From contig OW203773.1 in NCBI GenBank assembly GCA_934045905.1, forward strand, positions 17,967,246 to 18,031,245: a DNA stretch of 64,000 nucleotides, read 5' to 3'. The stretch's first letter is position 1. Each line of letters begins with the position of its first letter. Position numbers and translations under genes: made by a program. This stretch comes from Leuctra nigra. Lineage: Eukaryota; Arthropoda; Insecta; Plecoptera; Leuctridae. Shown piece after piece: positions 2,452 to 59,937 of the stretch. The notes under the pieces are model-generated. The model was not told the origin of the DNA and ran no database searches. It saw nothing but the letters and a program-made list of their open reading frames with translations.

Positions 2452-5306
2452 ATGAATTTCATCGACGTGATCAAACCTTTTCTAAACATTTTGAAATTCC
2501 TTGCTCTCGCTCCTTACAGAAATGTTTCAAATAAATACGAGAAATCTAAAGAATCTTTGATACTGTCAGTAGTGTGGTTCATATCATTATTCGTATTTAC
2601 ACAATTACATTTATTTTTAAGTGGCTTCAAGTGGATTAATATTTCTTTATTAGATTTCACACAATATCTCCACGCCATTTTCAGATGCCTTGTAATTTTT
2701 TATGCCTTTATGTTACGATTCTTTAAGCAAGACACTTTTCTCTCGGTTTTAGAAACTATGTCGTTTTTGACAAAGGAATTGCATATCGAAAAATCACAGT
2801 TGATTTGGTATCAGAAAGTAATGTATCGTCATGTAGCTTTGTTCGCCCTTCACCTTATGATGAGTAGCGGAGTTTACGTATTTATGCTGGGTAGTGGTGA
2901 AACTTTATACACTTACCTGATGATCGTTGCATTGCTGATCACGGATGTGTCAACATCGGTCGCGGATCTGCAGTTCAACTTCTCCGCGTTGTTGATTGGA
3001 GAGTTCTTCAAAACTCTTACGAAGATGTTAGAGAAGTGTTGTCAAGATCCGGGGAAAATTAAGGCCAACAGGTAGGTATAGCAATGATAGTAGTAGAGTA
3101 GGAGTATCAGTAAAATTAGTAAAGCAATTAGTAAAATTCGATGGTAAAAATTGAGTGTCACACCGTCACAAGTTCATTAAAAATCAAGGAAAAACACCTC
3201 AAACTATATTGGAAGAGATTTAAGTTGAATGGTTATCCATAGATAAATCTTTTCTAATACTGAGGTGATTTTCCTTGATTTTGTAAGAACTTGATGATGG
3301 TGCAACACTCAATTGGGCCACTTGAAATGTTCGTCGTGGTTGAGTTGCTTATTCGCCGATATCTTACAATAATGACGCATTATGTTAAGAAGTCACACAA
3401 TTTAACTATGTGCACTGGAAACTCACACCTCTCCGATTACCCTACATAGCTTGATTATATTCTTCCAAATGTGTGCAACGCGAATTGAATAACTGCGATA
3501 CAGAATTATACTTTCTATTCCAGTGTTGTGAATGTCTTAAAACATAACTGGATCGGTTGTCACCACCAACCCGTAGAAGATATCAACCAAGATTGTAGCA
3601 TCATCCAGATCGAGCCCAGTTCATCTCCCAGCGTGGTCCACATCTCCCAGCTACACAGCAAGATCTACGACGTCACTAACACGGTGAACAACTTGTTCGG
3701 AGTCCAGAATCTCCTCTCGACTCTGGCCTCCTTCGTCACCATCGTCCTCGTGGTCTTCTTCTTACTCTCCGCCGTGCTGGGAGTGCAGGGAAGTTACAAT
3801 CTCACGGCGACGTTCCTTGGAGCTCTTGTCATGAATGCGTCCAGTCGTGTCGTGAAGATCATATTCATGATATCTGCGTGTGGTTCAGCGAAGACAAAGG
3901 TAATTATCACTTTTGAAAATTGAAGGAGTCAGCGGTAAATCAAATTCGGATGAAACTAAGACACAGAAAGTCTTATGTTGAAACTTGTACATATCTTCCA
4001 TACAGATCGACAATTCAATTGATTTTTTCAAGACTTTGTGCCAATATTTTCTAAAAATTGAAGGACTATTCTGAAAGCTCATAAAATTCAAAATAACGGC
4101 AAAATGACACCTTAAACAATTTTTTTTATTTACTCATTTCGTTCTGCCGCTGTACCCTTCAACTATAATGACGTGATATTGTTTAATATTATAACTAGAA
4201 ATGCATTAACAAATGGCCTCCCAAAAGCCAAACTACCTAAGTCACTCAAGAGGTAGCCCGATTAATACCTAAAGGTATTTAAAATATGTGGTACCAATAC
4301 ATTCCTGTATTTTTACATTACACCATAAAGATACATTCAAGAATGTATACTTTCAATTCCAAAGTTACTAAACCCTTGATTTCCCAAGCTTCTGTGAGGT
4401 TCTGTGAGACTTCTGTTAGGCTTCTGTGAGGTTAACATGTTCAGCAGCAAAAAGTTAACAGAACTTCTTGAATCTTCCGTCTACAGGCTAAGGAGCTGGC
4501 GTACGCGGTGTCCAAGTTACAGACTTCAGTCAGAACGGCACAACTTAAGGACCAAGTAAGCTGATCTTAATTGTGATTTATTATCCTTAAAACAACACAC
4601 TATAAGATATTTTGTCAAGTACATAACCGATCACATGTATTAGTGTGGCAATGACAAGAATGTAAATTACTTCCTTTTACCAAAAGAAGCAGTATTCTGT
4701 ATTTTGATATTCAATAATCATGTAGAGGGCTGTTAACAAAGATTCAGTTCTTATTTAATTGGGTGCCCATTGAATAAATTAGGTTAGCCAATTGATTGTA
4801 CCTGAGAATCTAATGAAAACCAAATCACATACTTTTACTAGTACTATGTCACAAATGGCCAGTTTTTCAAAGCTCTGCTTAAACTAGGAGTTTAAGATCA
4901 ATGAATCGAGGTCAATCATGACATTCATGGCAATATAGTCCCAATCAACTGTTTCAAATTTAGCAGAACATTGAAAAATTGGCCATAAATGTATTAGTTG
5001 ACAATCATTTTAAAAAGTCGTGGAAATGCAAGACTGTAAAGATGTATTCTTGTTGAAGATCGACACGTTTTCGTTCCAACTGCTTCATCGCAAAGTGGAA
5101 TTCACAGCATGCGGGCTCTTCCCCATTGACTCCACTCTCTTCTACTCGGTAATGTTCTTCTGGGTTTCAACTCGAACTCTTGTTTCAATACGAAGACGGC
5201 GAGTGACTCTGGACTCTGTTCACAGATCGCTGGTGGAATCACCACGTACCTTGTCATCATGATCCAATTCCAACAGGCATCCAAGTTGACAGATAGCACA
5301 ATGTGA
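2452..5306 (+). CDS. Gustatory receptor (7tm_7 family), five exons, 411 aa
   Basis: Insect gustatory receptors are seven-membrane-segment, inverted-topology cation channels of chemosensory neurons that detect tastants. The proposed exons are 2452-3071, 3524-3899, 4487-4555, 5059-5148 and 5226-5306. All have GT/AG borders and the phases (2,0,0,0) join without a stop, giving 411 residues, the normal size. Exon 1 holds hydrophobic segments 1-4; exon 2 has the next membrane segments. Exons 3-5 carry the family signature: LQLLHRKVEFTACGLFPID-like residues (here FSFQLLHRKV), then IAGGITTYLVIMIQFQ, the canonical TY-h(5)-QF motif of the last membrane segment. The start is the first ATG of the frame. 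The acceptor of exon 4 (5058/5059) is the least certain, chosen by phase. No break is seen, so it is probably functional. Ligand unknown. Confidence 0.88.
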
Positions 5307-18906: not shown

Positions 18907-21900
18907 GATATGGAAACATCGCATCATAAAATAAGCTGATTTGGTAGGGTAAAATTATAGAACTTAGCCATGAATATAGTACACAGTAAGGGGAAACTGT
19001 TCAAAGCTAGATGGTATGGTTTCATGAAAATGTATGCAAATTTCAAATATATCTAATAACCATGGCCGTAACCATCGTTCATCGTTCATTTCCATACTTC
19101 TAGAAAAGTTTCAATTGAAATCGGCACTAAATTCATTGCTCTGATGACAACAAGTTGATTAGCCATCGACATCATGATCCTCATTGATCTCTTGAAGCTT
19201 TCAGAAGCTTCGAACCAATCACAACCGTAGACAGCCTCCCTCAAACCTGAGCTCTGTAACATTGAGAAACAAGGATGAGTAATTGGCGCCCAAACGTAGG
19301 GACAACTCTGCCACTTGTTGCATTCTTACCACTTCGGTTAGCAAGTCACCCATCCAGCAGAAGAGAGCGAGAAATAGTGACGCAGCAGACATCATCACGA
19401 TAATTGTGCAAGCTACTGCATTCATAGATTTCACCTGTGAAATGATTTTAATTTTATGTTATTAAAATTCATTCTGATTAATCTATCATTGATAAATTTT
19501 TAAAATATGATCATTGTGGGAGCGAAGCGAGCTAAAATTATGATTTTTTTAAAACGGATTAATTGTTCTTTTTGTTTGAATTTTATTCTGTTATTGCCGA
19601 TATACAAATCGCACCATTTCAAAGATCGATCTGAAATTTTGAACATATTTTATGTAAGCAATTTCGTGGTGGTTTGCACCAGCATTTTTTATTTTTTAAT
19701 ATTAGAATTATTATCTACTAAAGGGTGAAAAATCAGACAGGTCTTCCATAGACAGATTATATTAAAATTTTGCATATTTATAAGACCAACGTAGGTTCTT
19801 TTGCGGTTCACTGTATTTTTTTAATCTTCTTATTGGTTAAAAATTAAAAAATATCGATCAATTTCAAATATAACATGGTCATTTGGTTCAAAGGTAAATC
19901 AGCTTTTAAAAGTTTCAGCCACATAGTTAAAGACATTTTGTTTATGTTGGTTTCCAAGTAAGAGTAACATTGAAGTGTACCACTTTTTATTTAATAACTT
20001 ACATTCATGATGTACAGAAGAGCAAGTGCCGATAGAATTAGATAGAATATCACACCGCTAAAAAGATTTGGTTGGAGTAAATGAAATGAATCATTCATAA
20101 TTCTGGAACATAGACAGTAACTTGTCAATAATTTTTCATTGAAAATAAGGCTACGAGGGATGAGTAGAAATTTTTACTTTGAATAATTTTAACTTGATTT
20201 GTATCAATTTCTGTTACAAATTTAATAGATGATGAAATAGGGCATCATATGGTTCAATAAAAATATTACCACAAATTGTAACAGAAATCGAACATGGTAT
20301 TCGTCTTAATATTATGTTCAATGCCTGAAAATTAGTAAAAATATGGCACTGCATCTGTAGGCAAAATAAAATTAATAAATCATATCAAACTATGAAATTA
20401 CTTTCATTGGACAGTTCTGAAGAAAGGTAGTACGTAGCCTCATTTCACAAAAAAATCATTGGTAAAAGGTATTGATACAAATCGATCAAAAAAATCTTCG
20501 AGGTCACGCTCACCAATCAAGCGTCTATGAGAGTTAGTATCTCTAAAACAATATTTTACAGAATAAAATAATGATCAAGACATCACAGTTTGTTTACCAC
20601 AGGTATGTTTGGAAACAATATCCTCCACTATGGTTGCAAATGCTTACTTGATAAGGTCCTGATGATGCTGGATGCATTCCTTCAGACGTCTCTCCATCTC
20701 CAAATCAAGCTCACGCTTCTCTTCATCTGCATTCTCAATGATTCGATGTCGCTGATTTTTAATCAACTTCCAACCACAAGTCGATACATCAGCAACATCG
20801 CCATGATGAATGTCCAGGTGACTTAACTTCAACTCAATCTGTGTTCCACTCTTCTCGGTACAAACCCTCTTGTCAATTTTGCGGTAACTACTGATGATTT
20901 CATATCTCGATAACTTAATCTCATCTTGCAAAGGTGATGGTGCAAATGGATGTGTTTCCTCATGGCTTAACTCCATCACACGACGCTCATCTGGTATTCG
21001 ACTGTTCTCAGTCTTCTGGCGACGCTTGGCCTTGATGTGCTCGAGACTGTCAGCTCGGATATTCAACAACTTGTCGCATAGGACTCGGAATTGGCAGATG
21101 AAATGATAGATCAATGTAATTGTCACCTCCTGAACTACGCAAAACAGAATTGACACCAGGACTACCGAGAGACTGAATAGAGCTACCAATATTTCACGGA
21201 GTGGTGAGACCGATGCATCAAATGGAAAGTAAATCCTGCAAAATTATTAACTCGGTATTACAACTCTGTCATTACAATAATATTATTTAAATGGCATGGC
21301 AATGTAAAACATAATTTAATACAATACGAACCAAACAATTACATGCTCTTAGGTATATTCATTGTTATTAATGTAAAAAAATCATGTCATAAATTGGGAA
21401 TGGGATGGAAGCAGTTTGTTCTCAACCTTTGTTCTTACCCATCAAGAACTGATATTTTTTCGATGATAAAATAACAAATAGCGAACGGATTTACTGAAAC
21501 AATGAAATAGTACAATAAATGCACATAATTTTTCATTATTGAGTCCGCAAATTTCTTTGCCTTTTGCATGGACAATCGGTGTCTTCTTGTACTCAACGAA
21601 TATTTGTTAATTACGTCTTGAAACTTTAAGATGACGGACAGCAATTCTTCAGCCCTCCAATTGAAGTTGATCAGATGTACTGAATAGAAAACGAGTATAC
21701 TCAATTGGAATATTAAAACCGGTGATTGAGAATAGATCATGTCTTGAGAATGATGATAGAAATACAGGCAGCGACTGATGATCTCAAAGAAGACTACAGC
21801 AACTATCATACGAGGCAGATAATACCATACTCGACGCATCACAGTGATATTTGTTGAATTGTTGAAGTCATTCTTTCCTATTGAGAAAAACAAAATTGAA

Positions 21901-40900: not shown

Positions 40901-43900
40901 CTGTTTTTTGTTTGTCTGCTGTCTATCTGTGTATTTCGCATTACCTTTTAAACAAGGTAATGGATCCGGCCAATTTTTTTACAAAAGGTGCATTACAATC
41001 CGTCGCAGAAGGCTATTGATTTCCAGCAAAATCGGTCCATTAATTTCATCGGAAACTTGATAAGTAGTAGTAGTACCTACTTGGCTTGGCAATATGAAAG
41101 AAACGTCAACTCTGTGTGCCAATAAAACTGTCATCGGTTGACCGATCATCACCAAATTTTGCATTGTCATTGGCACCAGCATTATAAGTGTATTTTGACA
41201 AATCTTTAATGAACTTCAAGAGTAATAGACATTTTACAGACATTTGTATGCTTAATTTAAAATGGCCTGTGGCTATACACCACCGTTTGACCTATCAAAT
41301 ATCTTCTATAAATCAGATTAAACTCATATTTTGCATGGTCGTTAAGACCAATATTATCTCTTATATTACAAATTTTCAGCCCAATCAGTTAAGAACACAA
41401 TGCACTTATTGACAGTTTTAATAACTGTCAGAAATGACGTATCAAATGAATGTTTCCACTGCCAAATGGATCTGATTTGCTTTATGTAGGAAACAAAGTG
41501 TATAGATTGCTGTTCTTATAAGTTTCAATATTTCAATATTTCAATTCAATATGGATGTGTATGTTCCTGTGCGTTTGGTACGGAATTCCTATTGGAGAAT
41601 TTACACGTACGTATACCAGTGCTCGCTCATCAACGCGTTACACTGAGCGTTTTCCTAGTAACTTACATTCATGATGTATAGAAGAGCAAATGCCGATAGA
41701 ATTATATAGAATATTATACCGCTTATAAGATTTGGTTGGAGTAAATGAAATGAATCATTCATCATTCTGGAACATAGAAAGTTACCTGTAAATAATATTT
41801 CATTGGAAATGAGTAAAAATATAAAACTATACGAATTAAACGTACAAGTTCTATGGTTACGAAGGATTAGTAGTCGTTTTGACATTGAATAATTTTTATC
41901 TCGATTTGTATCAGTTTCTGTTACAAATTTAATTGTTGATCAAAATATTACCACAAATTTTAACCGAGTATCTATGACATGGCGTTGGTCTTAATAAGTT
42001 CAGTGCTTGCAACTTAGTTAAGATATGGTTCTAAATAAAATAAAATAAACAAAATAAACAAAAAAATTATATCAAACTATGATATTACTTTCATTGAACA
42101 GTTCTGAAGACAATTGTTGTTTCCTCATTTCATAAACGATCATATTTGTAAAATATATTATTACAAATCGATTAAATATCTCTTCAAGATCCGCTTCTCA
42201 ATCGACAGTCTTATTGATAAATAGATAACCTAAAACAACAGTTACGGAATAAAATAAAGGGCAAGACCCTTTAGTTTTTCTTTACCATTGGTACCTATGT
42301 TTGAAAACAATATCCTCAACTATCGTTACAAATACTCACTTGACAAGCTCGTGTTGATATTGGATGCATTCCTTCAGACGTCTCTCCATCTCCAAGTCAA
42401 GCTCACGCTTTTCTTCTTCAGCATTCTCAATGATTTGATGTCGCTGATGTTTAATCAACTTCAAACCACAAGTTCTCTCATTTGAGACATCAGCAACATC
42501 GCCATGATGTATGTCCAGGTGATCTTTCTTCAACTCAATCTGTGTTCCACTCTTTGATACCTTAATCTCATCCTGCAAAGGTGATGGTGCAAATGGATGC
42601 ATTTCTCTTTGATTTGACTCCATCACACCTCGCTCAGTTGGTGTTCGACAGTTCTCAGTCTTCTGGCGATGCTTGGCGATGATGTGCTCGAGACTGTCAG
42701 CTCCTCCTTGACTTAACTCCATCACACCTCGCTCAGCTGGTGTTCGACTGTTCTCAGTCTTCTGGCGACGCTTGGCCATGATGTGCTCGAGACTGTCAGC
42801 TCCTCCTTGACCCAACTCCATCACACCTCGCTCAGCTGGTGTTCGACTGTTCTCAGTCTTCTGGCGATGCTTGGCGATGATGTGCTCGAGACTGTCAGCT
42901 CCTCCTTGACCCAACTCCATCACACCTCGCTCAGCTGGTGTTCGACTGTTCTCAGTCTTCTGGCGACGCTTGGCCATGATGTGCTCGAGACTGTCAGCTC
43001 CTCCTTGACCCAACTCCATCACACCTCGCTCAGCTGGTGTTCGACTGTTCTCAGTCTTCTGGCGATGTCTGGCGATGATGTGCTCGAGACTGTCAGCTCC
43101 TCCTTGACCCAACTCCATCACACCTCGCTCAGCTGGTGTTCGACTGTTCTCAGTCTTCTGGCGATGTCTGGCGATGATGTGCTCGAGACTGTCAGCTCCT
43201 CCTTGACCCAACTCCATCACACCTCGCTCAGCTGGTGTTCGACTGTTCTCAGTCTTCTGGCGACGCTTGGCCTTGATGTGCTCGAGACTGTCAGCTCGGA
43301 TATTCAACAACATGTCGCACAGGACTCGATGTTGGCAGATGAAATGATAGATCAATGTAATTATCACCTCCTGAACTACGCAAAACAGTATTGACACCAG
43401 GACAATCGAGATACAAAATAGAGTTAATAATATTTCACGGAGTGGTGAGACCGATGCGTCAAATGGAAAGTAAATCCTGCAAAATTATTAACTCGTATTA
43501 CAAATCTGTCATTGCAATTATATTATTTAAATTACATGACAATGTTAAACATAATATACAATACGAACCAAACAAGTACATGCTCTATATTCATTTTCAT
43601 TCATGCAAAAAATCATTTCATTAGGATAGAAACAGTTTGTTCTCAACTTTTGTTCTTACCCATCAATAACTGATATTTCTTCGATGATCAAATAATAAAT
43701 AGCCAACGGAGTTATTGCAACAATGAAACAGTACATTGAATGCACATAATATTTCAGTATTGAGTCCGCAAATCTCTGTGCCTTTAACACGGTCAATCGG
43801 TGTCTTCTTGTACTCAAGGAATATTTGTTAATTACGTCTTGGAGCTTAAAGATGACGGAGAGCAATTCTTCAGTCCTCCAGAAGACGTTGATCAGATTTA

Positions 43901-48400: not shown

Positions 48401-48900
48401 AACAATAAGTTAGTATGTTTCAATCTTTTTTCTGTTAAATACATTGCAAATTGAAAAGATTTGCATGGGATTCGGATTGGCTGTCAAGTGTTCCAACCAT
48501 TGAGCTAGTGTTCCATACTAAGCTAAGCTGCGTTGTGTTTCGTATTTTGAACTCTATTTCTTTAGTCCAAGACGTGTTGGCGTGATCAGAAAACCGTGGA
48601 ATCTGTTCCACGCTTGACATCTGACATTCTAATTCTCATATGGATGTTTCTCACGGATAATTCAGGGACGTGGGTTCGAATCCCACACTTGCAGAAAAAT
48701 CATATCTCACAACCATGATGGGGAAATTCCACAGCTTTCTGATAAATACTCCAAGAAATTCCTGAGGTCAAAGTCAGGCTGATTGTCCTGAAAACTCGGG
48801 CATGGCGTAGTGTTTAAGGATGTTCATCATCACTATGTCCAGTACATCTAGATGCCTGGAAGGTTGTTTCGAGGTGGCGGGGTTCTTATTCGCCCTGGGC
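48401..48900. other. Intergenic, with an isolated B-box-like site
   Basis: GTGGGTTCGAATCCCAC at 48669-48685 is a perfect T-arm with a Pol III B box. No matching acceptor and D arm are present in front of it, so it is at most a tRNA-derived SINE remnant. The last 100 bp should be 3' UTR of the gene whose stop is at 48901-48903. Confidence 0.45.
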
Positions 48901-51900
48901 TTATTCTTCAAGAGTGACCAGAACTGCATTGTGATCAGAGGTAAGAAGTGGCAGAGGCTCCAAGTTCAAGGAGTGTCTCAAGTTCTTCATTATCACGATG
49001 TCCAGGACGTCTGGTAGTTTGGAAGGTTGGCAGAATGTCATCTCTACAGGTCCTAGAAAATAATCAAAATAGAATCTTCTCAAAATAAAGCTTTTTCAGT
49101 GTTTTTCAAACAACTTTTTGGCGTGCTTGATCTTAATTTCTGTGATATCAAAGTGAATTTTAAGAAATTGTCAATTTATTTTAGATTGTTGATACAAATT
49201 TGAATGGTTCAGGGGTATCCACTTGATACAATTCAAAGATAAACCTGTCTGAAAAGTGAAGTCCTATGCTAATGCATTGACAGCTACAGTTGAAATGTTC
49301 AATTTGTGGAATTGTATCAATATTTCTTTCAGACCGATTTTTTTTTGAAAGCTCATAAGCCACTACCAGTTGACACCTCTTTCTCATTTTCTCCAAAAAT
49401 GAACTTGTCGTTCTTCCCGTGCACCCTTCAAATTATCTGGCCGTGGAAAAGGTAATAACAGCACGGTACCATTAACAGTAAATCTTTTCTGTCTGGAGTG
49501 GGCAAAGAGAGATTTCCCCTTCTTGTTATTCTCCCATGAGTTCCAGCTCTTGTGTTTGGCGTTGAGATCTCCACAGATGATGGTTGGTAATGCAGAATCC
49601 AGGAGGAAGTCGATGTCGTCCATCAGGAGCTCAGTGTTTGGAGCGCAGTAGGCGGAGAAGAGCCGGATGTTAGGAGACATGTCTCTGATGAGAACGCCAG
49701 TCACTTCCAACTGAAGATGACGCCGTAGCTTGATCTCTTCATGTTGGATGTGGGAAGCGATTACAATTGCAGTTCCTGAAAGTCAAAGGCAAGTTAGAGT
49801 TAGAAAAAATACATTGGAATTTGAAAATCTTTTAGATTTCCGAGAAATATAAATGACATCTAATGTTATCATTGTATCGTATTCACAGTTGATTCTGCAA
49901 TAATTAACAATGCTTTGACCAGTTAGGTGTCAAAAAAGTCAATTGAAATGTATGCTCCAGGAAAATATTATAGGACTCAGAACGGGTATTCGTGTATTTC
50001 TTTGAAGTTTTCCATACGGGGAAATCCGTATTAAGGGGGCATTAGCAGCCCTCGACATAATAACATTTTCACCAGCCCATTTAAAAAAAACACTGGCCAT
50101 CAAACCATGGACCAAATTGTAGCATGGAAGCCGCATAAAAAACTGGGTGTCATACAAAACTATAATTATTTATTTGCCACCTCCACACGCTTTGGCCCCT
50201 TGGTCCGGCCTGTCAGTCCTGTAGATTGTGAATCCCTCTAGAGCGATGGACTGATGTCTAGCAGCCAGATGCGTCTCCGAGAGCAACGCGATGTTGACTT
50301 CCTTGAACCTCATCACATTCTCCAATTCCTCAACTCTCTTCTTGAAGCCGTTGACGTTCCACATTACCAGCTTCAGTCCGGACAGCTCAAGACCAGGTGG
50401 TTCTGTGTACGGAAATAGAAACCTAAACATTCTTCCAATGTGTGGAATCCTTTAGCCGTGGAGATGGTATTCGTTAGAAGGAGTTGTGATTAGAGTGGAA
50501 AGGATAGTGTGAATGTTGTGAATCTGGTATCTGGTGTGAATGTTTAACGCATAGAAACTCAGAGGTTACCTAAAAGACCGTAGTTGAGAATTCCTCCTAG
50601 TAAGAAGACGGCGACATCTAGTAGAAGGAGGATAGGACAGAAATTTGTTTCTGATGACATAAGGACTTACTGGATGGACAGGAAAGTTTGTTCATTGGGT
50701 GCGGAAAGCTGTGTGATTAGCAATTGCACTTTTGCTATTTGTTACATTAGGTATGCAATAATTAAGAGGAAACAAATGTTCTTAATTCTTATTCTTTGGG
50801 AACTGTTACTTTAACGACTTACTTTGCATACCAATTACTCTTATTTAGAATTAATGTTAACGTGATAAATGTTACTTACGTATTGTCTTATGGTCAGGAC
50901 AGTGGAAGGTTGCACAAAGGAACATCATGCTGTCGAAATGAACGAACTCCGATGTAAACGACGAACTGCAATTGCCCATCATCAAATCTTGCTTCAGGTC
51001 CATGTATCTTAGGAAGGTGTTTTTCAGATCATCAAATTTCATAGCAATTTCAATGGCTGTGAAAATCAATAAAGGTACAATTATCATTATTGTACACGAC
51101 TTGCCATTAGAACATAAATATATTTATTATAAATTCATTTATAATAACATAAATAAAATAATCCAACATAATGGTTGACCCCAAGGATCAAGCTTTCATA
51201 AAACTCTAGTAGCAATACACACTTTACTACTAAGAATAATTTTCTATCTGCCTGCGCTGTGAAAATGTAATTGTTTGTGCAATACTTAATTTACCATCTA
51301 ACATTTGACATTATTTGCATTTTTTTTATTTAGAATGCCAAGATTTTTTCTGTATGTTCCCTGTTACAAAATTAAAAGAATTGTGGAAAATATTAAAATA
51401 AAATACTCCCCTGTCGGGAAATTTTAACAATGCAAAAAATGGTGTTTATACAAACGTGATTTAGAAGTCACGATTGGTCAGAGGTTTAATTGTTTTTGTA
51501 AGGGGCAATGATTTGGACTGAATCAATATTCTGAAAAAATATTAACTATCAAAACATATTTAATTAGTTTTAAAATAAAATTATGGCACATAACATCTGT
51601 AGGAAAAATAAAACTAATGCGTCTATACAATCTATGAAATAACGTTCATTTATTAGCCCTAAAGCAGCCTATTTCATAAATAATTCAATTGGTAAAGGAT
51701 TTGGAACAAAATCAGTTAAAAAGACGCTAACTATATTCCGCAATATAATGAGACAGATTCTGTTATTCAGTTCTTACTGTCGAACTCATCATCGAAGATA
51801 ACTACAAGATTACTCAGCATCGTCTCCTTCTTATCTTCATTGCAGTAATCCACATCAGCTGGATTCCACAAGAGTGCATTGTGCTCGTAGAAGCAGATCA

Positions 51901-52573
51901 GATCATGTTCCTGATCAGATGTCCACACTTTCCTCCCACCGTGCTCCTAGAAGAAAGCATCATCAAGGCATTCGACAATGATTCTTCAGCCGTATGCGAT
52001 CCAGAAACGACCGAAATGCCCCATTAGATTGCCCCACTGATTGGTATGGCAAAAAATAAAATTACACTCTCAAGAACATTTCCAATATTTTGACTTTGTA
52101 AGTAATAATGACACATAATGTCCCTTATTAATGATTTTGTATTTTTTAAGTTTTTATTATCAGAGAATGAAGAATATTTTAACAGAGGAGTTATTGGAAA
52201 ATCATTTCGAATTTGGAATATTTTATAATATAGCACACGGTGGTATTGTTTTAGTATTTTAATTTGACACGTGAGGTGTTTTATCTTTTCTAAGTAATGG
52301 TGAATGGAATGACTGTCGTTATAAGTAGACAAAAAGTTGTGAATAACTGAGAGCATGACCACCATCGGTGGAGCCACTTTAAAAACCTTCCCTTCCCGTT
52401 CATATCTCTCACACTGATTTTTTTATTATGATGTTATGATTTTAATATAAAATTTAGCAATTATTGCAACACACGCATATTTTCTATTTGGATGGCATCA
52501 TGGAAGATATTTAAATACATATATTTTATTAAGCGGCATTTTAATATAACTGGTACTTACTTACCAAAGACAT
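48901..52573 (-). CDS. Gene C: MADF-like domain fused to a retrotransposon-type endonuclease, six exons, 344 aa
   Basis: Exons 52573-52565, 51946-51778, 51056-50880, 50402-50181, 49775-49470 and 49052-48901 (phases 0,1,1,1,1; total 1035 nt). Exons 2-3 encode a MADF-like domain, a DNA-binding fold of insect nuclear proteins: HDLICFYEHNALLWNP, DYCNEDKKE, then a KFDDLK...LRYMDL helix and HFDSMMFL. Exons 4-6 encode an endonuclease/exonuclease/phosphatase domain closest in pattern to non-LTR retrotransposon endonucleases: MWNVNGFKKRVEEL (Asn), LLSETHL (Glu), SAYCAPN, CGDLNAKHKSWNS (Asp, Asn) and TSDHNAV (Asp, His). All key catalytic positions are kept. No reverse transcriptase follows, and introns cut the domain. 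The tiny first exon (MSL) is inferred from a strong GTAAGT donor and phase. Donors of exons 4 and 5 (GTGGCA, GTACCG) are weak. Function unknown; a nuclear nuclease is the guess. Confidence 0.75.
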
Positions 52574-54255
52574 TTTGATGAAAATTGATGAACGCACAAT
52601 CTACTGTCGAAAGTTGTGAATAACCATTTGTGAATAAACTGTTACCTACAACTGTGGTTTTATCTATTTCTATTGATAATGAATACTATCTTATAAACGT
52701 TATAATTGGAATATTACATCATCGTTTTTATCGTAATCCAACGTGTTGAAAACCCAATCGAATTTCTAAGAATTGTTCAACAAGAAATTATTAAATTAGA
52801 TAAAATATTCTACCGCAATCTAATCAAACTTATTCTCCAGAAGAAGTTTGTGAATGAAACAATATGTTAAAATGAACAAATCTTAAGAAATGAAATGAAA
52901 AATAACTTCCAACTGATCCAGAAAAAGGTTTAATGATCTGATCATTATCTTAATTTTTCACACCTATTTTAAATTTGTATGAAATTGTACTTATCAATTA
53001 ATATTATACATATAAGATCTTGACTGTACATAAATAAAAAAATATCACATGTTTATAAAATAATTTCTAACGGTAAGGAATCATTTTGTTGGAGTTATGG
53101 CTGGCTTGGCAAAAAAAAATCGCCAGATTCTAAAATAAGATAAAAAAAATAATTATTTATCTACACGTATCAACAGTGCTAAACTGTGCGACCCACAATT
53201 TTGAGAAATATATTATTTTAGCTACAACTAAATCATTTGCATGTTACTTAAAAGTATTTGAACAAAAATAAATATCTAATATTAAATTGTAAGGGACACT
53301 TTTTATTAATACAATTATAAAACTTCGGAGGCCTTATTCTCTCATTGACAATTTAGGGTTTTGCCTAATCCAAGTGACTGCACTTCAATATGGGTAACAT
53401 TTCACCGAAACGGATTCGGACCGAAGGCGGAAATATATGAGTTACCTATATAATATGGCCCCTGGAGGCCAAGTCTTGAAAAAAGCGTTTTGAAACCGTC
53501 TGGCGTTTTCATTGATCAAAACGTAAAAAAAGTTGAAGGCTAAGGTATAGTCGTCAACTTTTTTACGTTTTGATCAATGAAAACGCCAGACGGTTTCAAA
53601 ACGCTTTTTTCAAGACTTGGCCTCCTGGAAGTAACTTCCGAAATCATTCCTTGTAAGAATTGATCATAAAATATTTAACATCATAATACGATGAACAAAA
53701 AATATACATTCTTCAATCCACGATAGTTTTTCAATGGTATAATAAATATGAAATAAAACAAATCACAAACATCATCTACTAATAGAGAACGGAAATGAAA
53801 AAATATGATTTAAGAATTCTTAGATAAAGTAAAGTTATTCCGAGAATAGCTTCTCAATAAAATAATATGCAATATAGCAAATAGCTTACAAATTCTTAAA
53901 TCTGTTCAGTATTTTGTTTCAACAGCGATTCAACCCCAGATGTTCCCCTGTTCTATAACATAAAAATTAACGATTCTGGCTGGAATGCGATTCCATGCGT
54001 TGTGAATCCATAAGGCCGTGAATCGGATTCCTGTAGATTCGGGAACTTCCAAGATAAAGAATAAGGTCCCAGAGGAAAACACAAATTGCACCTGAGATCA
54101 CATTCTTTTTATAAGAGTCTGCATGACAACTCCAGGGGTAAAAACTATACTTTGTTGCGGTCCGATGGATGTCGTAAGCAAAGTTTATTCTATTTTCAAG
54201 TTTATATTATTTTATAATACAACAAATATACATAAATACATCACTATCCCACAAG
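52574..54255. other. Intergenic region between the MADF-endonuclease paralogues
   Basis: AT-rich, no gene. The first few hundred bases upstream of 52573 would hold the promoter of gene C. A 162-bp hairpin lies at 53464-53625 (separate entry). 53900-54180 has moderately GC-rich, unassigned text. Confidence 0.45.
53464..53625. mobile_element. Near-perfect hairpin, 73-bp arms
   Basis: Arms GGAGGCCAAGTCTTGAAAAA (left outer part) and its complement ending TTGGCCTCC flank a loop of about 16 bp. Non-coding. Short palindromic MITE or solo-hairpin element. Confidence 0.7.
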
Positions 54256-54649
54256 CCCATCAAGAGCTAAATTGCGGGAATAAATACATTAAATAACGTA
54301 ATAATATCATTTTAAATATAAAAAAAACTAAAGATTTTTAAACAAAACACAATTTATAATAATAAAATCATTTTCTGACCGGAGGTCCATAATTTCTGTT
54401 CTAACAGTCACATGTCCTCTCATCAACGAACTTAGTTCTCAGTCTCTCTCTTCCCATCAAGAGCTAAATTGCGGGAATAAAAACATTAAATAACGTAATA
54501 ATATCATTTTAAATATAAAAAAAAACTAAAGATTTTTAAACAAAACACAATTTATAATAATAAAATTATTTTCTGACCGGAGGTCCATAATTTCTGTTCT
54601 AACAGTCACATGTCCTCTCATCAACGAACTTAGTTTCAGTCTCTCTCTT
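54256..54649. repeat. 197-bp tandem duplication at the 3' end of gene D
   Basis: Two units, starting at 54256 and 54453 (CCCATCAAGAGCTAAATTGC), differ at a handful of positions. The second unit contains the last codons and stop (54638-54636) of gene D and its 3' UTR; the first repeats them further downstream in the direction of transcription. Confidence 0.9.
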
Positions 54650-57600
54650 CTTCTCCTAGTATAACGACTACTGCATTTTGGTCAGAAGTAAGAAGTGGCA
54701 GAACTTCTAACTCAACGGCGTTACGTAAGTTCTTCGTGATCACAATATCGAAGACATCTGATGAAGTGGTAGGTTCGGAGGATGTCGTCATCATTATAGG
54801 TCCTTAAATAACAAAAATAACACTATAGTCAGCGCTAAACCGTATCTGGACCGCATCTTCCTATCTTCTTTGTTCCTTTTCAATGATTTCTTTTCAGAGT
54901 ACGTAATGTGGATTCTTAAGGGTCAATGTGTTACGAATTTGGCAATAAGCGCTGCTGAAATTGAATTGTTTTGAGTTGAAATTGACTACACTAGCAACAG
55001 ACCATCGTAGCATTTCTTATTGAAATTTCCAGCAGCAACAAAGAAACAAAGCTATCCAGACAGACAGAAAGGTCGCAACTATAACAGTTACCCCCAAATA
55101 TACAACGGCATCATTGGCGAACCACACATCAACGTCACAAATCCGAGTAACTGCTAGGCGATCTCATTCTCGTGTTGCATCAAATAGGATACAAGGACCG
55201 TGGTATCCACAGCTCCAGCAGTTTCAATGTGAAAGTTTTCCCTTGATGAAATTACCGACAGAGTCTAAAAAATTATTTGAACATATCAAACCAACCTTTT
55301 ACGTCAAATCCTTTCAATATAGAATGTGCAAAGAGATCTATTCCCTTTACGTTATCCGCCGGTGAGTTCCAACTCGTATGCTTGGCATTGAGATCTCCAC
55401 ATATGATGGTTGGTAATGCAGAGTCCAGTAGGAAGTCGATTTCTTCCATCAGGAGCTCAGTGTTTGGAGCGCAGTAGGCGGAGATGAGTCGGATGTTGGG
55501 AGACGTGTCTCTGATGAGAACTCCAGTCACTTCCAGCTGGAGATGTGGAGGTAACTCTATCTCTTCATGCTCGAAGCCGTCGTACACTACGATTGCAGTT
55601 CCTGAGAGTCATATCAGGTCATATTAGAGTGCAATACTGAATATAAAATGTGAGACTCTATCAGTTGAATGATTTCTAAAGGAAAGTAGAGCAAAGTTTA
55701 TCAGAACGTTGAAAAACCTGACTCATGTTTTAATTTGAAAATACTATAAATTGGAGACATCACAGAATAAAATTCTGTACACTTAAAGTTTTTTACAGAC
55801 GATCCAAACTTCAATAGACAGATTTGATATGTAAGTCACTGCAGAGGTAGCTTGATTAATCAAAGTTTAAAAGATTTCGAAGAGTATCTCCAGTATCAGT
55901 ATCATTCTAGGATAAATTAATAAATTCACAGCAAAGAGACACCGAGGATTTAAAACCTAAAGGAAAATCCACGAATTTACCAATTGAAACCTATTGAAAC
56001 TTTTGATTACTCAAGGTGCGGCAGAAGTGACTGAGCTTACTTGACTTTGAGATGCCCAAATGCCTAATTTGTGGCGCTGTTTTTACAAGGACGATGATTA
56101 GTCTTACCATATCTTCCAGGACGAGTACTTGTCTTTATTATCACATCTTGTCCGCAGACCCACTCGTTCCTGTTCTTCAGAGTGTTCCTTTTCCGAACAT
56201 TCGGGAGTTCATCTTCATAGAACTTGAACCAATACCTCGTCTTCTCCATGAATTCGTCGTCAGATATTTCTCTTGTCCCGAACATGTTGAACATCAAGTC
56301 TTCCTTGGGCGAGTCTGGTGGAAGTTCTGTGAAATACACTGCGACCGGCATTCTTGCGCCTAGTCCTTTGCCACCGTGAGGGCGGACAGATCTGATGTAG
56401 CCGGTGGAGTAGATCCCGTCTTTACCCTTCTTGTCTGTGTAGTGGTACAAGAGTCTTCGTGGAGGATCTGGGAGCGAGCAAATGGATCAAGATAAACGGT
56501 TTGCAGCGAGCGGAGATTTGAGAAGCGATGTGAATTGACAACTCTCCTAGTATCTAGCGTATACATAAATCAAACGAATATAATATTTCTTTGGAACAAC
56601 AGACAATCTTCCGTGATGTTTATTTTTATAATGCTTAAGAAATTATCTGAAATGACTGCTTGTAACATATTAGTCATCAAGTATTGTGATCTTTAATATT
56701 ATCGCATTTTATATTTATACGACATTACAGCTCTATTTTTGAAGAATAAAATAGAATAAAGGAATGATATGAAGGATAATATTTTTAAGGGTGGTTATAG
56801 ATCGTTTATTGAAGTATTTTGCTAACTGAAGCAGCATTTACATCAAATTTTCATGACTATAAATAACTCATTATCTGTAATGTTTCTATTTTTTATGGAC
56901 ATGCGAGGTTTGGAAGCCGTTGTAGATACTCAATGTTCGTATACTATTTTTAAGTAGTGTCGACTTCTCCCTTCGACACATTTAGTAAGACATCCCTTGG
57001 CAAAAAATTATTGTAAATATTACACACCTCCACACGCCATGTCTTTGTCCGTCTTATCAGTCCTGTAGATTGTGAATCCCTCTAGAGCGATGGACTGATG
57101 TCTAGCAGCCAGATGCGTCTCCGAGAGCAACGCAATGTTGACTTCCTTGAACCTCATCACGTTCTCCAGCTCCTCCACTCTCTTCTTGAAGCCGTTGACG
57201 TTCCACATGACCAGCTTCAGTCCGGACAGCTCAAGACCAGGCGTTTCTGTAGGCTCTTCCAGATAAACTAGAAACCCATTTAACACAATTCTTGATTGGT
57301 ATGTCCCCTTACTCTATAGGGACCATCCATAAGTTACGTTCGCGATTGGGGGGAAGGAGGGGGTGTAAGTAGTTATGTGACGTCACTCTTACAAAACTCA
57401 ATTTTCCATAATTTGTATTTATTTTTGAAACCTAAAAAAATGATTTACTGAAGTTGGCTGGTAATCAGGTAGTTGGTGATGGTTAAATAATAGTTTGAAA
57501 AATCTAAATTCATTGCAGAAATCCAAATAATATAGAATTCATTTTTTTTTTTTGAAGGGGTGGGGCAATTCATGGTCACAATTTGTGACGTAATTGCAGA

Positions 57601-59937
57601 GGGGGGTTGTTGACTTTGTGACAAGCTGTGACATTGGGGAAGAGGGGGGGGGGGTTGAAGGAGGCCTAAAATACAGTGACATAATTAATGGACGGCCCCA
57701 TAAAGGAATATTTTACAAAAAAATTGTGACTATGCAATTTGCTTGACCAAATGTATTATTATTGAAGCATTCAACGCACTTTTTCTTGCCATATTAAAGT
57801 AAAGGACACAAATATAATATATTTCTCACGAAGGGGAAATCTCTTTCAATATTGATGTTACTTACGTTCGTCCAGCATGGATGTCACATCGTCTGGAAAG
57901 TGGAAGATGGTACAGAGGAACATCAAACTGTCGTAATGCACGAAGTCTGAGGTGAATGCAGTGCTGTTCATCATTGAATCCTGCTGCTGATCCAGATGTC
58001 TCAGGAAGGTGGTTTTCAAGTCATCGAACTTTTCCGCAATTTCGAGGGCTGTTAAAATTATATTCATTAGCATTTTGAACATTACTTCCTATCTCTTATC
58101 CAATGTATTTATATTTGTATGTACCTAATTTTTCATATTATTGAAAAATATACGAAGATAAGTAATACTAATACATGTTGAATATTAGGAAAGAAAAATT
58201 TAGTGAAGTAATATAATTTTTTATTCCCGATTCTCTGGAATTCCATTCAGAGACATGGCACAACTTTGAACCGAAGATTTGCGATTTTTTACGTCGAATA
58301 TGAATATCAAATAAATAATTTACAAACTATTTCGAATATTGAATAGAATATCGAATACGTGGAGACTAAATTCAGGGGACATTATCACATAAAAAATATT
58401 GTCAGCCCCAAAATTGTGATAAATTTCTAGTTAAAAATACAGGGATTATATTATTTTAATTTTATTTTAGAGAAATGGAGAATTGACAGGATAATTAGGC
58501 GATTTGAACAACTAAATCTTTTCGAACACTTCAAATGCTCAAGTCGTAACGTGGACATATATTTACTGAAACAGATCCTCTGATTATGTTCTTACTGTCG
58601 AACTCCTCATCCAAGATCACTCTGAGACTACTCAGCATCATCTCCTTCTTATCTTCATCGCAGTAATCCTCATCAGCGGGGTCCCACAAGAGTTCATTGT
58701 GCTGATAGAAGCAGATCAGATGGTATTCCTGTTCCACGGTCCATTTGCTCCTCCCTCGGATATCCTAGAGGCAGAAGACGAGATCATCGATTGTAACAAG
58801 TCATTTTATAGGAACCGGAACCCGTATTTATATTTTAGATTATTTGGGTTCCATCGGCTCCGTAGGGTTTTAAATAATTAATTTCATTTAATTTTTACTT
58901 CTTGCTTTTCAAACATGAAATTATGTTTTATCATTCACAGTTTTTCAAATAAATGATCACTGAGTCAAATTAATGCTAGGTATTTATGTGCATGTAAGTT
59001 CTCAAGACTCCATTTTAGAAATATGGAATTATTGTCTGAATTTGATGGAACCCATTGGAACCCTTATGGAGCCTAAATGGAACGGAGCCAGAAGTCGAAA
59101 CCGTTTTTTTCTCCAGGAACCGGAACCGGAATCAGAACCGATATTCATTTGGGTTCAAGTCCCTGAAAAAAATATAACCATATACACAGTATTGGAAAGT
59201 TTAAAAAAATATCAAGAAAATCAAAACATCACATCAAAATAAAAGTTAAAATAAAAAGTACCTAGATATATCAAAAAATATACAAAAACCAAAAACCAAA
59301 AAATTAAAAGTTAAAAAATCATCTTAATAAAAGCAATTAAAACAAATAAAAAATAATACCAAAATCAAAAAAAAAAAAAAAATTACACAACAAAATTCAA
59401 AATTTAAAAAAAAAGCGAAAAAAAATCATAAAAAAATCATATCAATATTAAAAAAGGAAAAATATATCACGCAACGAAATAAAAAATCAAAGAAAAACAA
59501 AAAAAAACATAAAGAAATAAAAAAATTACAAAACATCTTGTAAAATATTTAAAAATTAAAAAAGTATTTAAAAATTGAAAAAAAAAATTAAAAAATTTAA
59601 TAAAGAATAAAAAATAAAGAAAATTTAAATATACAAAAAAAATAATCAAGGAGTCAAAAAATTAGGTGTACACTAAAATGTCAAGTTTTTAACCCCTCGG
59701 TTCACACCGACACATGGACACAAGGGAGTCAATTCACCGCGGAAACCACTGACGAGGAAGTGCAACGATAATACTCGCAAGATTGTTCATATCACTACAC
59801 AACTATCAAACTACTTTTAAGATTACATTTCAGGCTTTAATATTTCATTTCAGAAATTTAAATACCTACTGCAATATTTGTTATTTGATGGATTCTTGGA
59901 ATACATTTCTTAATTATTGAATACTTACGGAAGTCAT
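54636..59937 (-). CDS. Gene D: MADF-like domain fused to a retrotransposon-type endonuclease, six exons, 350 aa
   Basis: Paralogue of gene C with the same structure: exons 59937-59929, 58764-58596, 58048-57866, 57246-57028, 55601-55296 and 54802-54636 (phases 0,1,1,1,1; total 1053 nt). Exons 2, 5 and the first have identical lengths in the two genes. MADF-like part: residues about 14-115 (YHLICFYQHNELLWDP, DYCDEDKKE, KFDDLKTTFLRHLD, HYDSLMFL). Endonuclease part: residues about 130-345 with WNVNG at 135-139, SETHL at 162-166, GDLNAK at 262-267 and SDQN at 335-338. The last position is His in gene C and in active nucleases of this fold but Gln here, so catalysis may be lost or changed. The intron between exons 4 and 5 holds a further open exon-like segment (56467-56108). 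First exon (MTS) inferred from phase and a GTAAGT donor. Exon 6 acceptor TTTAAG is acceptable. Confidence 0.72.
56108..56467 (-). other. Exon-like 360-nt segment resembling a HYD1-type ADP-ribosyltransferase domain
   Basis: An open segment with a good acceptor (TTGCTCGCTCCCAG) and a strong donor (GTAAGA) and phase 1 at both ends, so it can be spliced in between exons 4 and 5 of gene D without a frame change, adding 120 residues after residue 193. Its text starts LLYHYTDKKGKDGIYSTGYI and continues with VAVYFTELPPDSP: the HYT(D)-x-G-x-x-x-I-x-x-(S/T)-G-x-I and GVYFT-x-L-P-P patterns of the HYD1 class, predicted ADP-ribosyltransferases known mainly from bacterial polymorphic toxins and some eukaryotic proteins. 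If read through, the frame stops at about 56064. Gene C has no such segment in its 405-bp intron. It may be a cassette exon, an alternative last exon or an unrelated nested gene. Family assignment is from pattern memory. Confidence 0.55.
59215..59700. repeat. A-rich repeat module in intron 1 of gene D
   Basis: Made of AAAAATCA/AAAAATTA words and ending AGGTGTACACTAAAATGTC plus CCCCTCGG. Related to 13570-14050 and 44340-44560. Just outside lie GGAACCGGAACC-type repeats (58810 and 59115). No gene. Confidence 0.6.

Follow-up and report, generated by a model that had tools for sequence, protein, structure and literature searches.

The window analyzed here is a stretch of 64,000 nucleotides from the genome of Leuctra nigra (positions 17,967,246-18,031,245 on contig OW203773.1). 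It contains two genes, designated C and D, that lie in tandem on the minus strand and have six predicted exons each. Both gene models connect an N-terminal MADF domain to a C-terminal endonuclease (EN) domain of the kind that is encoded by retrotransposons lacking long terminal repeats (non-LTR retrotransposons). The coordinates of the exons and of related loci, as found in the searched genome of 536 Mb (144 contigs, the window lying on C12), are collected in Table 1.

The splice models bear out the six exons and the identical phases that the initial annotation had proposed: all ten introns have GT-AG borders, the intron phases are 0,1,1,1,1 in both genes, and neither spliced frame contains a stop or a frameshift. 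The spliced frame of C comprises 1035 nt including the stop, as was annotated before. That of D comprises 1074 nt including the stop, and the 1053 nt given earlier is obtained when an AG situated 21 nt downstream is taken as the acceptor of exon 4. The very short first exons are not an arbitrary choice, because a scan of the 2.5 kb preceding exon 2 (exons of at most 180 nt, GTRAG donors) yielded exactly one phase-0 candidate per gene, in both cases 9 nt followed by GTAAGT. In a blastn comparison of the two genes, exons 2, 4, 5 and 6 match with a DNA identity of 70-92%, a match of exon 3 appears only in the protein sequences (62-63%), and the introns gave no match. Some further sequence features were observed around the two genes. 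A remnant similar to exon 6 of C (48810-48875, minus strand; 22 aa, 59%, expectation value (E) 0.002) lies just downstream of the C stop, a 198-bp tandem duplication (54256-54453 and 54453-54650, 98% identical) spans the stop codon and 3' end of D, and a long near-perfect inverted repeat, foldback-like by eye, lies between the genes (53460-53640).

Table 1. Predicted exons of genes C and D, the candidate exon H and related loci elsewhere in the genome
Feature	Coordinates	Strand	Basis and remarks
C exon 1 (MSL, 9 nt)	52565..52573	-	sole phase-0 ATG+GTRAG candidate in the 2.5 kb upstream of exon 2
C exon 2, MADF first half	51778..51946	-	Pfam and splice model; in-frame stop immediately upstream
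C exon 3, MADF second half	50880..51056	-	Pfam and splice model
C exon 4, EN motifs WNVNG, SETH	50181..50402	-	Pfam, EN alignment; DNA 92% identical to D
C exon 5, EN motif GDLNAKH	49470..49775	-	Pfam, EN alignment
C exon 6, EN motifs DVLDI, SDH, then stop	48901..49052	-	Pfam, EN alignment
D exon 1 (MTS, 9 nt)	59929..59937	-	sole candidate in 2.5 kb
D exon 2, MADF first half	58596..58764	-	Pfam and splice model
D exon 3, MADF second half	57866..58048	-	Pfam and splice model
D exon 4, EN motifs WNVNG, SETH	57028..57267 (alternative AG: start 57246)	-	Pfam and splice model
D exon 5, EN motif GDLNAKH	55296..55601	-	Pfam, EN alignment
D exon 6, EN motifs DVFDI, SDQ (His replaced), then stop	54636..54802	-	EN alignment
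Exon H, HYD1-type ADP-ribosyltransferase domain	56108..56467	-	in D intron 4; 360 nt, AG/GT borders, phase 1 in and out
Exon-H family loci	contig C4 11.19-11.43, 15.27-15.32, 21.1 Mb; contigs C10, C11, C13		genome search
PIF/Harbinger element	loci L053, L054, L055, L068		MADF gene and transposase on opposite strands

The domain content predicted in the initial annotation was recovered by profile searches. For C, Pfam reported MADF (PF10545, 2.4e-8), PF14529 (3.5e-17) and PF03372 (3.8e-10), and for D the same three families (3.5e-10, 2.1e-12 and 1.8e-7, respectively), all above the curated cut-offs. The MADF scores are 34.7 bits for C and 40.5 bits for D against a cut-off of 22, and all 84 positions of the profile are covered (1-84). 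Both genes terminate where the EN domain ends and, as had been stated, no reverse transcriptase (RT) is present in either model. A sequence search of the PDB identified only weak relatives of the EN, belonging to the endonuclease/exonuclease/phosphatase (EEP) superfamily (best E 1.4e-4 with a C/D profile). The structure of the TRAS1 EN (1wdu) is a solved relative, with E 3e-4.

The EN half is related to the retrotransposons that reside in the same genome. More specifically, a whole-genome search with D, in which 114 matches were scored of 948 candidates, returned D itself first (exon 5), and the other 113 matches were EN regions with 41-48% identity, many of them located in open frames of 902-924 aa. 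In one of these elements (L020) a frame with CCHC-like motifs lies upstream and the EN frame continues into an RT, as judged by eye. Eight resident representatives were aligned with C and D. The domains are collinear throughout, with identities of 43-53% for C and 40-48% for D, and in a tree C and D cluster as a pair (100/100) apart from the eight elements. These data support the derivation of the EN half from a jockey-like non-LTR retrotransposon, in which 'jockey-like' is a label based on the motif pattern and the layout of the open reading frames. The differences from such an APE-like EEP nuclease are equally clear: C and D have no RT, are fused to MADF, were found in two tandem copies and contain introns. 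An RT in frame, a lack of introns and dispersed copies, as are characteristic of mobile non-LTR elements, were thus not found. The EN of the resident elements is one unbroken frame, whereas C and D share two introns within it, which most simply arose after the capture and before the duplication. At the DNA level, EN exons 4 and 5 of D match only D and C, among a total of 22 genome matches in a search that skips very common words. A fragment similar to EN exons 5-6 (41-53%, apparently intronless) was observed about 4 kb past the end of the window (L040 3968-4267), and is probably a piece of a retrotransposon upstream of gene D.

The active site differs between the two copies. The catalytic positions, which we take from work on EEP nucleases to be N, E, D/N, D and SDH, are all retained in C in the alignment with the eight retrotransposon ENs. 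D has SDQ where C and 8/8 of the compared elements have SDH. The full order of endonuclease motifs that had been annotated for both genes therefore stands for C and fails for D. Out of 71 columns that are invariant in the eight elements, C keeps 52 and D keeps 48; three are altered in C only and 16 (by subtraction) in both genes, which carry an identical residue at 13 of the 16. Relative to one element, unique changes number 17 in D and 7 in C. The EN of D, with its SDQ, is probably impaired. An active nuclease would rather be expected in C, because it keeps the SDH set and has fewer unique changes.

The coding frames seem to be under purifying selection in both halves. The ratio of nonsynonymous to synonymous substitution rates (dN/dS) was calculated for the pair C versus D by the NG86 method with 2000 bootstraps and amounts to 0.28 overall (95% 0.20-0.39), 0.21 for MADF (bootstrap 95% 0.10-0.39) and 0.30 for EN (0.20-0.44). 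None of the 2000 bootstraps gave dN>=dS, neither for MADF nor for EN. Exons 5-6 alone yield 0.29, and the three codons of exon 1 yield 1.38. A dN/dS calculation had been among the checks suggested in the initial annotation.

The closest relatives of the MADF half that were found in the genome lie in a DNA transposon. A genome search with the MADF part of D returned seven matches, namely the four MADF exons of C and D and three remote copies with 36-37% identity. The remote copies have 1.94 kb in common that is 96.5-99.5% identical. One of them extends over ~5.06 kb, has terminal inverted repeats (TIRs) of 66 bp that are 94% identical, is flanked by TAA on both sides and encodes a partial DDE_Tnp_4 transposase (PF13359, 27.7 versus 24.8 bits) on the opposite strand. 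On the basis of the TIRs, the TAA flanks and the transposase it is classified as a PIF/Harbinger element, which was probably active recently given the high identity of the three copies over 1.94 kb. Its MADF gene contains an intron whose position, to the residue, and phase agree with those in C and D. Nevertheless, descent from PIF/Harbinger does not follow from the shared intron, because in 20 of the 27 matches of a genome-wide search with PF10545 one boundary also falls at profile positions 36-46, and the intron may be old across the whole family. Since the closest MADF that was found sits in a PIF/Harbinger element with the same intron, both halves of C and D may stem from transposons. The proposal of the initial annotation, that a host DNA-binding gene captured an endonuclease, therefore holds in so far as an intron-bearing gene gained a non-LTR EN, but the word 'host' is unsettled.

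Repeated domestication of PIF/Harbinger MADF proteins in insects has been described (PMC9710019), which makes such a route plausible for C and D. According to the passages of that source considered here, the proteins resemble C and D in having a MADF that comes from, or is related to, the second transposon gene and in being under purifying selection. They differ in that they are kept beside a domesticated transposase, whereas in C and D the MADF and a retrotransposon EN are part of one predicted polypeptide. A PIF/Harbinger copy in the L. nigra genome (L054 3-1220 and L068 3136-3501; contig C1, ~66.83-66.84 Mb) appears by eye to be nested in a non-LTR retrotransposon, being flanked by a CCHC-type frame at one end and by an EN-like frame at the other end; the MADF gene and the EN adjoin and lie on one strand. 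The EN-like piece has no Pfam match at 0.01. The arrangement is a possible model for the start of the C/D fusion.

Most likely, C and D are a domesticated gene pair and not a mobile element, because they are constrained and EN exons 4 and 5 of D matched only D and C at the DNA level. We consider it fairly probable that this tandem pair descends from a MADF gene that captured an EN and that C carries out MADF-tethered nicking. The parts of this proposal differ in strength: a domesticated chimeric gene can be assumed with considerable confidence, and given such a gene, the question whether C nicks DNA catalytically could go either way. The ancestor would have been an intron-bearing MADF gene, either of the host or of a PIF/Harbinger element, that gained the EN domain of a jockey-like retrotransposon through a phase-1 intron. 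The EN part would then have acquired its two introns, after which the gene was duplicated. The MADF domain would tether the protein to particular DNA sites, and the EN of C would nick the tethered DNA by a metal-dependent, APE-like chemistry. Most plausibly, C would restrain or compete with transposons, or act at the sites that these first used. A transposon-restraining role would fit the origins of the parts. D, without the catalytic His, could serve as binding partner, competitor or decoy, possibly with an additional isoform as discussed below.

Several observations weigh against this proposal. D alone is altered at seven of the element-invariant columns, including the His, and at least D may not be a nuclease. 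The selection estimates come from a single sequence pair and are not branch-wise; dS of exon 3 is 2.17, which is near saturation, and gene conversion is likely in exon 4, because its dS is low (0.21 versus 0.44-2.2 in exons 2, 3, 5 and 6), which would distort the pairwise estimates. The genome-wide PF10545 search with its 27 matches omits the MADF exons of C and D, which are singly too short. A search of the protein collection with D (2528 candidates) gave nothing at E<=0.001. In addition, C has an in-frame ATG ten codons upstream of exon 4, and a separate, EN-only start is conceivable.

The last point bears directly on the correctness of the joining. In case the models were wrong, the EN exons would belong to another transcript, either of a second gene next to the MADF gene or of an old EN gene that had become intronised; the ATG of C could then open a separate EN frame, and the two possible acceptors of D exon 4 would also agree with this. 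However, C and D both join exons 3 and 4 in phase 1, the exons are arranged and oriented alike in the two copies, and in D the 16 codons that are open ahead of exon 4 include no ATG, which makes a wrong joining improbable. A very improbable explanation is that the two genes are pseudogenes in decay, or what is left of transposon insertions, under relaxed constraint. D, with its SDQ and its faster change, might be read in this way, but the spliced frames are intact and dN/dS is well below 1 in both halves. That the nearest relatives found for both halves lie in transposons would be expected if MADF and EN travelled together in a chimeric mobile element. With only two copies found, in tandem, with no further DNA-level match to EN exons 4-5 of D in a search that skips very common words, and with introns within the EN, such an element is barely credible.

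The alternative of most weight, which we hold to be possible though doubtful, accepts the domesticated pair and concerns its catalysis. The EN might have been kept to recognise DNA or chromatin, with C and D acting as regulators or dominant-negative factors and cutting not being selected. The loss of the catalytic His in D while the pair stayed constrained is in line with this, and so are the 13 element-invariant columns that were altered to the same residue in C and D, i.e. on their shared stem. Nevertheless, C has the complete set of catalytic positions, and a loss in one copy does not show that the ancestral function was lost. We favour the domesticated pair with a nicking C as formulated above.

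Intron 4 of D harbours a further candidate exon, designated H, that encodes a putative HYD1-type ADP-ribosyltransferase (ART) domain. The exon scores 21.9 bits against PF15633 (E 2.9e-4), just below the curated cut-off of 25, and the two ART domains of one of its family members score 26.3 and 20.3 bits. All six family members tested match PF15633 at E<=0.1, and a profile built of exon H and its relatives recruits 27 proteins of the public collection, 25 of which are labelled PF15633. Exon H alone gave no match in the protein collection, and a PDB sequence search with the ART family gave none either. The ART family is described as bacterial toxins (Tox-ART-HYD1; PMC3482391), with which, as far as that source was considered, exon H shares the YHYT...G..GI...G pattern. 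The difference is that exon H lies inside a MADF-EN gene model.

The L. nigra genome contains 39 matches to exon H, itself included, mostly on contig C4. Out of the 38 others, 12 were taken for close comparison. They are 52-67% identical to exon H, dN is smaller than dS against each of them, and in all 12, as in exon H, the domain follows an AG of identical phase, as judged by eye. DNA similarity to the relatives is confined to the vicinity of the exon (15/22 DNA matches). One relative (L067) has a stop near the end of the ART domain, and another (L056) has two ART domains 2.8 kb apart. Because the open frame of the second of these extends 134 codons past the match, the ART exon may be the last exon in this family and the GT that follows exon H may be fortuitous.

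If exon H is used at all, it must be spliced from upstream, because it has no start codon of its own and the window contains no HYD1 match beyond exon H; gene C therefore has no such exon. A stand-alone gene was considered and rejected: the YHYT motif is not preceded by an ATG, and the reading frame is closed by a stop codon ~20 nt ahead of the acceptor. An AlphaFold2 model of exon H alone had a mean pLDDT (predicted local distance difference test) of 40.6 and was not used. Exons 2, 3 and 4 of D all end in a phase that fits exon H, and D could thus also make a MADF-ART isoform. Alternatively, exon H may be a fragment of a gene in which decay is not yet apparent. In a neutral simulation, from which insertions and deletions were left out, the frame stayed open in 28%, 9% and 3% of the cases at 0.1, 0.2 and 0.35 substitutions per site, respectively. 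An open stretch of at least 128 codons was present in 27 of 2000 first-order resamplings of D intron 4, exon H included. A more far-reaching and rather unlikely reading is that locus D acts as a module switch assembled from three domains of genetic conflict, in which a MADF head of DNA-transposon origin is spliced to the EN or, via exon H, to the ART, and that DNA-targeted nicking by C and DNA-targeted ADP-ribosylation by the D isoform would together police transposons or their chromatin.

Apart from the gene pair, the window contains an open frame in which a ~33-aa repeat occurs seven times in frame, as counted by eye (42336-43397, minus strand), and a related frame with one copy (20644-21189). 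A piece of a 7tm_7 chemosensory receptor is found at 3528-3920 on the plus strand (Pfam 1.2e-8), and five tRNA-Ser(GGA) predictions lie within 273-1402, four of the five spaced exactly 306 bases.

Genes derived from transposases are well documented. To our knowledge, there are few precedents for a DNA-binding gene that has captured a retrotransposon endonuclease, and the only case known to us is that of bovine Bcnt (p97Bcnt), which was reportedly described by Iwashita and colleagues in 2003 and is said to carry the endonuclease domain of RTE-1. As is proposed for C and D, an endonuclease domain would have passed from a non-LTR retrotransposon into a protein of the host; Bcnt differs in that the receiving domain is Bcnt and not MADF, the element is RTE and not jockey-like, and the organism is a mammal. 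A fusion of MADF with an endonuclease was not found in open-licence papers, and one literature candidate turned out to be a list of Pfam names. C and D would thus represent a domesticated transposon gene with a pairing of domains not previously found in that literature.

The pair is a likely case of a genome making a new tool out of the pieces of its own parasites. As the two genes are constrained, with one active site intact and the other altered, they allow one to ask whether, and where, the endonuclease cuts for the host. Exon H, moreover, provides an opportunity to test whether an exon has been shuffled between an ADP-ribosyltransferase family of the conflict type and a gene derived from transposons.

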